Below, piece after piece: positions 8,884-13,025 of a stretch of DNA of 64,000 nt (the stretch's first letter is position 1; the number at the start of each line of letters is the position of its first letter). This DNA comes from Synechococcus sp. JA-2-3B'a(2-13) (lineage in GTDB: Bacteria > Cyanobacteriota > Cyanobacteriia > Thermostichales > Thermostichaceae), in the NCBI RefSeq assembly GCF_000013225.1, contig NC_007776.1, positions 639,277-703,276 of the forward strand, given 5' to 3'. Position numbers and translations under genes: made by a program. The notes under the pieces were generated by a model, which did no database searches, was not told where the DNA came from, and was given only the letters and a program-made list of their open reading frames with translations.

Positions 8884-10488
8884 ATGGCTTGGGCAGTTGG
8901 TGAACAATTGCAAGGGGGACGCTACCGCATCGAGGCCGTTTTGGGGGAGGGGGGCTTCGGCATCACCTACCGGGCCTGGGATAGCGTTCGTGCCGACCAG
9001 GTGGTTATCAAAGTTTTGAACGACAGCCTTCGTGAGGATCCCGACTATCCCCACTTCCAGCAGAACTTCATGAATGAGGCGCTGCAACTGGCCCGCTGCC
9101 ACCACCCCCATGTGGTGAAGGTGGAAGAAGTGATCTGGGAGCAGGAGCGCTGGTGTATTGTGATGGAGTACATCCGCGGCCAGACTCTGCACCAGCTTCT
9201 GCGGCAAAAAGGGCCGTTGCCCCTGCCGGAAGCCCTGCGCCTGACGCGGGAGGTGGGATCTGCCCTGATGGCCTTGCACGAACAGGGGATCCTGCATCGG
9301 GATGTGAAGCCAGCCAACATCATGGTGCGGGAGGGATCCGGGCAGGCAGTTTTGATCGACTTTGGCCTAGCTCGCGGCTACACCCAAGGTCTGATCCAAC
9401 GCCACACCTCCTACGGCACCGATGGCTATGCTCCTCTAGAGCAATACGACAGCTTGCGCCGCCGCGGCGCCTTCACCGATGTCTACGCCTTGGCAGCAAC
9501 CCTCTACACGGCGCTGACGGGGATGGTGCCTATGTGTGCGCCAGTGCGGGCCACAGGCCGCCAGTTGGATACCCCTCGCAGCCTTAACCCCAACATTCCC
9601 GAGGTTGTGGAGGCTGCCATTCTCAAAGGGATGGCTCTCCACCCAGAAGAGCGCCCGCAAACCATGGCCGAGTGGCTGGCACTGTTACCGGCAGAAGCCT
9701 CTCAACAAGGGAGGAAGCCGGTTGCTTTTGAGCCAGCCATCCGCACCCAAGAGCTGAGGGAGCTGGAGCAGATCTTGGCCCAGCCTCCAGAACCCCAAGA
9801 CGAGCTGGAACAGCTCCTGTCCCGGCACTCGGCGGAAGAGCTAGAGCAACTGGTGGCACCTCCCACCCCTGCCACTGCCAAAAAAGCTGGAAGAGAAGAG
9901 GGATCCGGATCCCTGATTTTTCCTGAGGTCTGTCCAGAGGAGAGAGGGAAGGGGGGATCCCTGCCCGGAACTCTCTCTTGGCCAGAGTGGGTGGGGGAAG
10001 CAGCCCCTGCCTTGCAAGGTCTGTGGGATCGGCTGCGAGCGGGGCAGTGGGGGGAGGCGGATCGCTGGACGACAGCCCTGATGCTGAAGCTTGCTGGGCG
10101 CTCGCAAGTGGGCTTTTTTGATCCCAAGGATGTTCAGGCCTTCCCCTGCCCCATGCTGCGGCTGATTGACCAACTGTGGGTGCGGGCCAGCCATGGGCGC
10201 TTTGGCTTTAGCGTTCAAAAGCAACTGTGGCAAGGATGCGACCCCGGAGGAACCTCAATAGGCAGATCGCGATCCTTCTCCGCCTTGCCCCGCGAAGAGT
10301 GTATGGGGGAAGCCGTGGGTTGGCGGATCCAAGGTCGCTGGCTGGGGTACGGCGAGCTCAAAACCAGCCTGGATGCACCGCCAGGACATCTGCCTGTCGG
10401 CTTTTTTTGGGGCTACTCGGGTGGCTTGCGCTCGGCGCTGCTGACGCTGGATCGAGTGGTGCTGAAAAAGCTAAAAGCCTGTTTCTAA
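8884..10488 (+). CDS. Ser/Thr protein kinase with C-terminal GUN4 domain
   Basis: The 534-aa protein joins two modules. Residues about 14-270 form a Hanks-type kinase: GEGGFG loop, VIK lysine (Lys43), HRDVKPANIM catalytic loop near 138, DFGLA near 159, then SYGTDGYAPLEQY in place of the usual APE. A Glu/Gln-rich linker follows. Residues about 375-534 are a GUN4 domain, recognised by AFPCPMLRLIDQLWVRAS and GRFGFSVQKQLW. GUN4 binds porphyrins and activates Mg-chelatase. Kinase-GUN4 fusions may couple tetrapyrrole status to phosphorylation, which is inference. A decayed copy of its last codons lies at 11848-11979. Confidence 0.93.
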   Translation: MAWAVGEQLQGGRYRIEAVLGEGGFGITYRAWDSVRADQVVIKVLNDSLREDPDYPHFQQNFMNEALQLARCHHPHVVKVEEVIWEQERWCIVMEYIRGQTLHQLLRQKGPLPLPEALRLTREVGSALMALHEQGILHRDVKPANIMVREGSGQAVLIDFGLARGYTQGLIQRHTSYGTDGYAPLEQYDSLRRRGAFTDVYALAATLYTALTGMVPMCAPVRATGRQLDTPRSLNPNIPEVVEAAILKGMALHPEERPQTMAEWLALLPAEASQQGRKPVAFEPAIRTQELRELEQILAQPPEPQDELEQLLSRHSAEELEQLVAPPTPATAKKAGREEGSGSLIFPEVCPEERGKGGSLPGTLSWPEWVGEAAPALQGLWDRLRAGQWGEADRWTTALMLKLAGRSQVGFFDPKDVQAFPCPMLRLIDQLWVRASHGRFGFSVQKQLWQGCDPGGTSIGRSRSFSALPREECMGEAVGWRIQGRWLGYGELKTSLDAPPGHLPVGFFWGYSGGLRSALLTLDRVVLKKLKACF

Positions 10489-10523
10489 AAAACCTGGCTT
10501 GAAATGACTAAAATGGGTAGCCA

Positions 10524-10865
10524 TCAATTCTTGAAAGGGGGGATGCTCTTTTCTTGTGGGTTTTCGCGAATAGCTAGACCCAAGTGAATCAATGCCGTCT
10601 CAACGGTATTGACCTGCTCTGCTAAAGTTTTCCACCCTCTTGCCTTTAAGCCATAACATTTGCCAAAGTAAGCTCGAGCTGCTGCAAAGGAAGCAAAGGT
10701 TTTTTTAAGAGTCGCTACGGTCCAGGGCTTGGCATTCAGCCGCAGCCAATTTCGTTGACCTTGCTGCTGTTGCTCGGTGATGAGTTGGTCTGTCAAGCTA
10801 ACAAGCTCAGCATAGTTGCGCCGCGAGGTCGCGATTGCCGTTTCAAGACTCTCGATGAGACCCAT
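10524..10865 (-). CDS. hypothetical protein, second gene of HicA-like cassette
   Basis: 113-aa protein not assigned to a family. It is mostly helical, with a conserved-looking core KKTFASFAAARAYFGKCYG and a basic patch. Start at 10865 has AGGAGA 6 nt upstream. It overlaps the 3' end of the preceding 266-aa gene by 23 bp, so the two are probably translationally coupled. No membrane segment or signal peptide. Local GC is lower than in flanking genes, suggesting a foreign origin. It may be the partner or antidote of the upstream protein; nothing in its sequence proves this. Confidence 0.7.
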   Translation of the reverse strand: MGLIESLETAIATSRRNYAELVSLTDQLITEQQQQGQRNWLRLNAKPWTVATLKKTFASFAAARAYFGKCYGLKARGWKTLAEQVNTVETALIHLGLAIRENPQEKSIPPFKN

Positions 10866-11643
10866 GGTTGTTCTCCTGAGGCAACTTCCCTTGATAAGAC
10901 TCCTGTTCTTTCTCCTGAAGCAACTTTCTAGAACCGGCAGAGAGCAAGTTGGTTTCAAAAACAGACTTGATGTTGTTCAGGTAACTTTGCAATAAGCTCT
11001 TAACCCATAGGATGGGAATTTGGTTTACCGCATTCTGAAGCTGGTCGAAGAGATGCTTGAGCTGCTTCAGAGCTACGATAGCATGACCGAGAACTTCTTG
11101 CGCTTGAAGCTGCTCTTCCACAAGCTCTCTCATTCTGTTGGCTAGCCGCTGATTCTCAAGTTCTTTCTCGGTGAGCAAACTAAGAGCTGCTTCCTCAGTC
11201 TCGACTATTTTAAATTCAAGTTTTTGGTTCTGCTCTTCCAGAAACTCAATCTGCTTAGTTAGTAAATCCGCCTCAACCCTAAAGCTAACACCTCTATTCG
11301 CTGGAAAGCTAATAAGTAGGTCGCTGTACTCTTGCTCTTGAAGCTGCAGCTCTCTGAGTACAGGCTCTGCTAGTTCGGATAAGACTTTGTGAGCTAATCC
11401 TACTTTCAAAGTATCTCCGCCGCCGTGTCCGGGAATAGGAATTCTTAAATCACCCCGAACAGCCTGCGTGCTATGTCTGGCACGTCGCTGAACAATTTCC
11501 CAGCCCCACTCTTTTGCTTGACGCAAAATATCCCGTTTTCGCCAATTCCTTGGAGCCTGAATAATGGCTTGGATATTTCTCTGCTGCTCTATAATTTCAT
11601 TTCGCCTCTTGATGAGATACCCTAGCTCTTCTTCGTCGGACAT
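10843..11643 (-). CDS. HicA-like domain plus coiled-coil protein (unknown function)
   Basis: 266 aa. Residues about 33-92 resemble the HicA (YcfA) double-stranded-RNA-binding-like fold: a helix with AKEWGWEIVQRR, then a histidine (His57) where HicA toxins have their catalytic His, a strand, and PGHGGGDTLKVGLAHKVL matching the HicA Lys/Gly turn and last helix. Residues about 120-235 are a long Leu/Glu/Gln-rich coiled coil. HicA toxins are normally 60-80 aa stand-alone RNases, so this would be an enlarged relative. The gene precedes and overlaps the 113-aa gene. The similarity is judged by eye, without a profile search. Confidence 0.6.
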   Translation of the reverse strand: MSDEEELGYLIKRRNEIIEQQRNIQAIIQAPRNWRKRDILRQAKEWGWEIVQRRARHSTQAVRGDLRIPIPGHGGGDTLKVGLAHKVLSELAEPVLRELQLQEQEYSDLLISFPANRGVSFRVEADLLTKQIEFLEEQNQKLEFKIVETEEAALSLLTEKELENQRLANRMRELVEEQLQAQEVLGHAIVALKQLKHLFDQLQNAVNQIPILWVKSLLQSYLNNIKSVFETNLLSAGSRKLLQEKEQESYQGKLPQENNHGSHRES

Positions 11644-11847: not shown

Positions 11848-11979
11848 TGGCTGGGGTTGGGGAGCTTACAGCCGGCTTGGAAGGGCCAAAAATCACCTGC
11901 CGGTGGGCTGTTCCGCGAATACTCAGGCGGCCTGCGCACGGCGCTGCCGATGCTGAAAAGGCTAAAAGCCTGCCTCTAA
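11848..11979 (+). pseudogene. decayed 3' end of a second GUN4-domain gene
   Basis: The last part is clearly homologous to the end of the kinase-GUN4 gene at 10350-10488. HLPVG is followed, after a frameshift near 11905, by YSGGLRTALPMLKRLKACL and a stop; the kinase ends YSGGLRSALL...KKLKACF. The bases around the two stop codons are also nearly identical. No start or upstream GUN4 body remains, so this is a fragment left by duplication or recombination. Confidence 0.75.
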
Positions 11980-12032
11980 AAAAACTCCCCTCTCCCAGAG
12001 GAGAGGGGTCAGGGGCGAGGGATCCAAGAGCC

Positions 12033-12193
12033 TTAGTAGCGATGCACCAACTTGTTGATGGGCTTGAAGATGTCTGCCTCAAACTTTTTGCCCTTGAGCA
12101 TGCGGTTCCAATAGAGCCAGGGTAATAGATGCACCTTGGCTAGGTACATGGAGTAGCGCTCCCGCGTTGGGTCCAGGGGGAAGGAGGGAGCTA
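12033..12193 (-). pseudogene. C-terminal gene fragment truncated by IS5-family insertion
   Basis: An open frame reading DLAPSFPLDPTRERYSMY and then a Trp/Lys-rich tail ending KPINKLVHRY runs to a TAA at 12033-12035. Composition and codon use look coding, but the 5' part is missing: the frame enters the IS at 12194, and the sequence on the other side of the IS carries an IS605-type hairpin instead of more gene. I do not recognise the family. Confidence 0.5.
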
Positions 12194-12247
12194 GGTCGTG
12201 TTGATCTTATGTTAGGATAGAGAGAATAACTTATATGAGGAAAGAAG

Positions 12248-12998
12248 ATGAAGTTGGTTTTTTTAGATGAAAACAAATGGCAGAAGATATTGGCTTTTTT
12301 ACAGACAGAAGAGAGAGTTAACATTGGGAAAGAAGCAAACTGCAAACAGTTTATTGAAGCAGTTCTTTGGATAGCCCGTTCCGGTGCTCCTTGGCGCTAC
12401 CTCCCAGAAGGATATGGCAAATGGTACACCATCTATCAAAGATTCCACCGGTGGAGCGGTGGAGTCGTTTTGGAGTGTGGGAACGGATGTTCAAGTATTT
12501 TATTGACGACCCTGATTTAGAGCATCTCATTATTGATTCAACCATGGTTCGAGCGCACTCCTGTGCTGCCGGAAAAAAGGGGAGCAAGCTTTGGGGAGAA
12601 GCCGAGGCGGATACAGCACCAAGATTCATGTGAGTGTAGATGGGTTGGGAAATCCGCTGGAATTGAGAATAACTGGCGGAGAAAAGAGCGATATTACTCA
12701 AGGGGAAGAATTGATAGAGGGCTGGCAGAGAAAGGATACCAAAGTAATTGGGGATAAAGGATATGATGCGGATAAGTTGATTGAGAAGATAGGGGAAGCT
12801 CAAGCGGTTATTCCGCCTAAAAGGAATAGAAAGACGCAGCGGCATTATGACAAGCATCTGTATCAAGAGAGGCATTTAATCGAATGCTTTTTTCATAAGT
12901 TAAAGCAGTACCGGCATCTATGTTCTCGTTTTGACAAATTGGCCAGGAACTTCTTGAGTTTTCTCTATCTCGTCAGTGCTCTCTTTTGGCTCAAATGA
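12248..12998 (+). pseudogene. IS5-family DDE transposase (OrfA/OrfB), inactivated by 8-bp duplication
   Basis: The reading begins at ATG 12248. At 12450-12465 GGTGGAGC is followed at once by GGTGGAGT; deleting one unit restores HRWSRFGVWERMF, so the duplication is the lesion. Further on A AAA AAG (12573-12579) is a canonical -1 slippery heptamer that joins the first part to the OrfB frame ending at 12998, as is normal for this group. DDE residues: LIIDSTMVRAH, VIGDKGYDAD and LIECFFHKLKQYR. In its present form only a truncated OrfA would be made, so it could move only with help in trans. Confidence 0.85.
12573..12579 (+). promoter_or_regulatory. -1 ribosomal frameshift heptamer in IS5-family transposase
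   Basis: A AAA AAG in the OrfA frame; slipping one base back enters the frame GEQALGRSRGGYSTK..., which completes the transposase. The heptamer and position are as expected for IS427-group elements. Confidence 0.7.
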
Positions 12999-13025
12999 AA
13001 GATCAACACAACCTAAAAAGATAAT

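Follow-up and report, generated by a model that had tools for sequence, protein, structure and literature searches.

Canonical HicA (Pfam PF07927) is a stand-alone protein of about 60-85 aa which, in the HicAB module, stands adjacent to HicB, a dedicated partner. In HicA of Burkholderia pseudomallei, a change of His24 or of Gly22 abolishes toxicity (PMC3969222). HicA has been sorted into 14 context classes (Gerdes 2024, PMC10865869), among which SMC-HicA (class 14) carries a C-terminal HicA on an SMC ATPase. Another point of comparison is the KfrA/KfrC pair of plasmid RA3 (PMC7783346, PMC8124265), described as an alpha-helical filament former with a DNA-binding role and an alpha-helical partner.

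We have compared with these systems a two-gene cassette located in a 64,000-nucleotide stretch of the genome of the hot-spring-type cyanobacterium Synechococcus sp. JA-2-3B'a(2-13), hereafter the window. Gene A encodes a protein of 266 aa with a HicA-like head on a stalk, and gene B a small partner with a conserved basic core. The head of A shares with HicA a homologous domain, the order of secondary-structure elements as predicted in a low-confidence model, the position of the His and strong basicity, whereas A differs in its fusion to a coiled coil, in having Ala at the equivalent of Gly22, in a His that is not conserved throughout the family and in the lack of HicB. As in SMC-HicA, HicA is joined to a coiled-coil protein, but A has its HicA at the N-terminus, lacks an SMC ATPase (window A gave no SMC match in Pfam or NCBIfam) and is followed by a non-HicB partner. 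Unlike the HicAB module, the window pair has neither an adjacent HicB nor a dedicated partner, since the B family occurs mostly beside A proteins that lack HicA. The likeness to KfrA/KfrC is one of description only. The A-B arrangement is absent from the 14 HicA context classes cited above, and no description of the pair was found in the literature. Our hypothesis, with about even confidence, is that the cassette belongs to a widespread but unnamed type of cyanobacterial two-gene operon, as its variant with a HicA head, and encodes a nucleic-acid-binding complex.

The layout of the locus agrees with a sequence-only reading of the window, which had described two overlapping reading frames of low GC content in an accessory spot between two GUN4 ends. 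Both frames were found on the minus strand (Table 1), the GC content is 46.7% in the cassette vs 58.6% in the window, and both GUN4 ends are present, the right one being degenerate.

Table 1. Features of the cassette and its flanks in window coordinates
Feature	Position	Strand	Basis and remarks
Gene A	10843..11643	-	ORF, ATG start; 266 aa comprising N-terminal helix, HicA-like domain, coiled-coil stalk and C-terminal helical tail
Gene B	10524..10865	-	ORF, ATG start; 113 aa comprising N-terminal helix and conserved basic core
A/B overlap	10843..10865	-	23 bp
HicA-like (dsRBD-like) domain, A residues 31-98	11350..11553	-	Pfam and profile-profile match; pI 11.2
His57 codon	11473..11475	-	Alignments; counterpart of the toxic His (GSH) in HicA
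Heptad-periodic part of A, residues 148-217	10993..11202	-	Permutation test
B core, residues 45-90	10596..10733	-	WTVxxLKKxFxSFxAARxYFxxxYGxKAxGWxxLAxxVN; three helices; pI 10.0
Imperfect tandem duplication at the A/B junction	10851..10926	-	Repeat analysis; two copies 39 bp apart, in frame
GUN4 end of protein kinase-GUN4 gene, left flank	10339..10495	+	Kinase-GUN4 gene ends at 10488
Degenerate second GUN4 end, right flank	11848..11986	+	67.9% over 159 columns vs left copy

The two GUN4-end copies bracket the insertion. In another genome of the same genus (G004), the kinase-GUN4 gene and an oxidoreductase gene are directly adjacent with a single GUN4 end, which represents the empty site, while a further genome (G001) carries the cassette at the same place as the window; gene A is present in two of the six sampled genomes of the genus. 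Beyond the GUN4 duplicate, the right flank continues with what is left of the 3' end of an oxidoreductase gene, which an insertion sequence has interrupted. This insertion sequence of ~0.8 kb lies in window 12036-13015, encodes a DDE-type transposase and has 17-nt inverted repeats at 12192-12208 and 12999-13015. Of the interrupted gene, which is sulfide:quinone reductase-like, the whole genome yielded only the final 55 codons (95% identity to G001). At the A/B junction, the in-frame tandem duplication can account for both the tail of A and the overlap with B. Among relatives, the two genes either overlap or are separated by a few tens of bp. The gap seen in G001, together with the duplication across the junction, indicates that the 23-bp overlap is probably recent.

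An affinity of the A head to the HicA fold, with a His at the HicA position, had been proposed from the letters alone, and profile searches bore this out. Against Pfam HicA_toxin (PF07927), residues 37-88 of window A align with positions 2-53 of the 58-position profile at an E-value of 0.024, which for this single sequence falls below the curated cut-off; homologues reach 1.9e-5 (L003) and 2.4e-4 (L010). When a profile of ten A-family members was compared by hhalign with 17 canonical cyanobacterial HicA proteins, the relation was recovered with a probability of 97.3, an E-value of 2.8e-11 and a score of 57.7, vs a score of 10.4 for the reversed profile and a maximum of 13.7 over 30 column shuffles. 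Because the score is far above the shuffled and reversed controls, homology of the A head to HicA is considered firm at the level of profiles. A single-sequence model of the head has the order helix-strand-strand-strand-helix, but its pLDDT is 55, and the dsRBD-like rows returned by a fold search with this poor model were set aside. His57 is preceded by Ala55-Arg56, where HicA has Gly-Ser. Six of the ten A-family members keep the His at the toxic position and the other four have Glu or Asp; Gly and His occur together in four of the ten, and RNase activity is possible in such members. In window A, the Gly is replaced by Ala55.

The stalk that follows was called a coiled coil from a permutation test for heptad periodicity. 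It is indeed helical, as had been suggested, although it is shorter than the long coiled coil first described, with clear heptads over ~70 residues. The stalk is acidic, vs the basic HicA head (pI 11.2) and the basic B core (pI 10.0).

No Pfam or NCBIfam family was matched by window B, and its PHROG match was sub-threshold. Neither similarity of B to HicB nor a HicB-like protein at the cassette was found in Pfam and NCBIfam searches, and neither A nor B had a PADLOC match. The B core was modelled as three helices (pLDDT about 93), and a fold search with this model returned no informative match to a known structure. In one homologue of B, a homing-endonuclease repeat (PF18780; E 0.0023) was suggestive of a helix-turn-helix, but the match was not repeated in other members and was rejected. 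B is homologous to a broad cyanobacterial B family (profile-profile probability 98, E 2.5e-13), and its core occurs in 77 of 380 sampled cyanobacterial genomes and 45 of 157 genera. The initial impression that the pair had no recognisable homologue was therefore mistaken at the family level.

The B core is also found outside the operon. In an S. elongatus-like genome (name inferred from gene content), ribonuclease Z (L189:1778-2950; NCBIfam 2.7e-113) has a C-terminal extension, residues 328-389, that matches the B core profile with an E-value of about 1e-6. Two Ser/Thr protein kinases (L138:1324-3435 and L192:1453-2742) bear a B-type core at their C-terminal end, and in membrane proteins the core is found two or three times. 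In two viral contigs (L106:5584-6654 and L107:4858-7860), phage proteins contain the broad-family B N-terminal domain twice in tandem, perhaps as a result of capture from the host operon.

A search for the pair as a unit in other genomes recovered adjacent A and B genes. HicA-type A and B are adjacent and on one strand in nine genomes, including that of the window. In the broad B family, B directly follows a coiled-coil gene at 54 of the 57 named loci, the usual distance being 12 bp, and these upstream proteins lack HicA. This unnamed cyanobacterial operon (loci L049-L105) is like the window pair in gene order, B being directly preceded by a same-strand coiled-coil gene, and in its homologous B core. 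It differs in the A protein, which begins with a short basic tail (MRRADRRD...) or, at three loci, with another domain, and which bears the motif ERRSKAGIKGWETRRKRENERLKQEI; neither is found in HicA-type A, from which the C-terminal KFKRIWQA helix of broad-family A is also absent. In the Calothrix A proteins L077:4196-5962, L087:4793-5947 and L104:4920-5969, an N-terminal domain that has no Pfam name replaces the short basic tail. Among the ORFs found, the broad-family stalk varies greatly in filamentous species, from 64 to 588 aa. A common origin of the stalks of the HicA-type and broad-family A proteins was considered and left unsupported (hhalign probability 8.5, E 0.0039); since the stalks have no demonstrable homology, it is B and gene order that link the two kinds of cassette as kin. 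More distant coiled-coil/B' pairs also exist. A degenerate-pattern scan of named genome contigs gave loci with the broad B set and none with the close B set, and single-protein searches with A gave no match in plasmids, phages or viral contigs.

The genes flanking the pair are conserved among close relatives only. Of the 75 nearest neighbours, most are housekeeping genes and few gave defence-type hits. Within genus g31, two genomes (L016 and L157) share their flanks (an HtrA-like gene and a gene for a 337-aa protein); one of them keeps a broken HicA-like remnant, whereas the other has B without an adjacent A. A B gene with no A next to it is seen in G093. In the S. elongatus-like genome G037 (name inferred from gene content), a HicA-type A is widely separated from a B homologue (L004 and L143); in its relative G018 the two are adjacent, and the original site can be recognised in both genomes by a zinc-ribbon gene. 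At L036:488-2574, A, B and a gene for a ParA-type ATPase are consecutive on one strand. On the Nostoc sp. MS1 plasmid pNSMS101 (L048), an A-B pair lies shortly upstream of a type I-MYXAN CRISPR-cas locus.

When the presence of HicA is mapped on a tree built from 48 B proteins, two changes are required, both forced by starred branches: the B of the S. elongatus-like HicA pair groups with the B' type, and the other HicA pairs form one group. Judged from this tree, HicA has been joined to such cassettes at least twice. The B proteins of the window and G001 nest with family-f27 sequences (starred; 98/83 and 96/88), the nearest being G139. This nesting, the low GC content, the patchy distribution and the empty site of G004 make it probable that the window copy arrived by lateral transfer from a different family of cyanobacteria, one that includes G139-type members; loss in relatives is a possible alternative.

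If the cassette is a HicA-headed variant of the unnamed operon, A would form an elongated oligomer through its stalk and hold B, nucleic acid (structured RNA being the likeliest ligand) would be bound by the HicA-fold head as well as by the basic B core, and the A-B complex would gather or tether RNA (or DNA). HicA would then serve in the HicA-type subgroup as an exchangeable binding head and not as a toxin, its toxicity having been lost. The homology to HicA, the conservation of the pair in varied flanks (including one plasmid) and the variation of the A head between HicA, a short basic tail and other domains (L077, L087 and L104) all point in this direction. An RNA-linked role of the pair is possible on sequence grounds, since the head and the B core are both very basic and the core also occurs on ribonuclease Z. 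On the other side, the stalks of the two groups of A proteins cannot be aligned as homologues, the B core matches no known structure, and the members that retain the His, with or without the Gly, leave room for RNase activity in some of the family. A role as an adaptor between proteins would account just as well for the B core being present in protein kinases and membrane proteins.

The sequence-only reading had favoured a new toxin-antitoxin system. Here the HicA head would be an RNase that cleaves mRNA, the stalk would oligomerise it, and B would be a new, non-HicB antitoxin that keeps it inactive. True homology to HicA with a His at the toxic position, a tight overlapping gene pair and an accessory, low-GC, patchily distributed cassette are in keeping with such a module, but we consider it rather unlikely. 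The His is replaced in four of ten members, window A has Ala in place of the Gly, and mutation at these positions abolishes HicA toxicity (PMC3969222). In 54 of 57 named loci the partner of B has no HicA, which makes an origin of B as a HicA antitoxin unlikely. Most of the B family sits beside a partner that lacks the toxin domain, which would be unexpected of a dedicated antitoxin, and the B gene of G093 has no adjacent A; with no HicB and an unconserved active site, toxin-antitoxin activity is probably not the ancestral or general function of the pair.

Another reading, which we regard as unlikely, is that of a filament or DNA-segregation pair like plasmid KfrA/KfrC, in which an alpha-helical filament former and a DNA-binding partner would position DNA or protein complexes. 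A coiled coil with a small basic partner, the A-B-ParA row at L036, the plasmid copy and the widely varying stalk length in filamentous species are compatible with this analogy. However, ParA was seen at one inspected locus only, and most copies are chromosomal, among housekeeping genes, as two genes with no fixed neighbour.

An anti-phage or conflict role, with the stalk carrying a head that can be exchanged, is improbable: the exchangeable N-terminal domains, the copy beside the type I-MYXAN CRISPR locus, the two viral contigs with tandem B N-terminal domains and the published HicA contexts that point to defence (PMC10865869) would suit it, but neither A nor B has a PADLOC match. A defence-island setting was likewise discarded, as no enrichment was visible among the 75 nearest neighbours, which were counted without a background set. 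Decay of a foreign cassette to a functionless state in the window genome, as might be read from the tandem duplication, the degenerate flank and degenerate relatives (G146), is very improbable, because dN/dS vs the nearest homologue (G001) is 0.33 for A, 0.20 for B and 0.09 for the B core, values that place both genes under purifying selection.

Read as a HicA-headed variant of the operon, the cassette shows a toxin domain in a setting where the domain probably does not act as a toxin. The B-core operon is common in cyanobacteria, yet it goes unnamed in Pfam, NCBIfam, PHROGs and PADLOC. More tentatively, such operons might constitute pan-cyanobacterial two-component coiled-coil scaffolds for nucleic acid, perhaps RNA, that are new to the searched family libraries, with heads that have been exchanged and a HicA that has been tamed more than once. 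The B core on ribonuclease Z and protein kinases offers an experimental entry, and HicA-type pairs also occur in Synechococcus elongatus-like and Thermosynechococcus-like genomes (names inferred from gene content), where genetics is routine.
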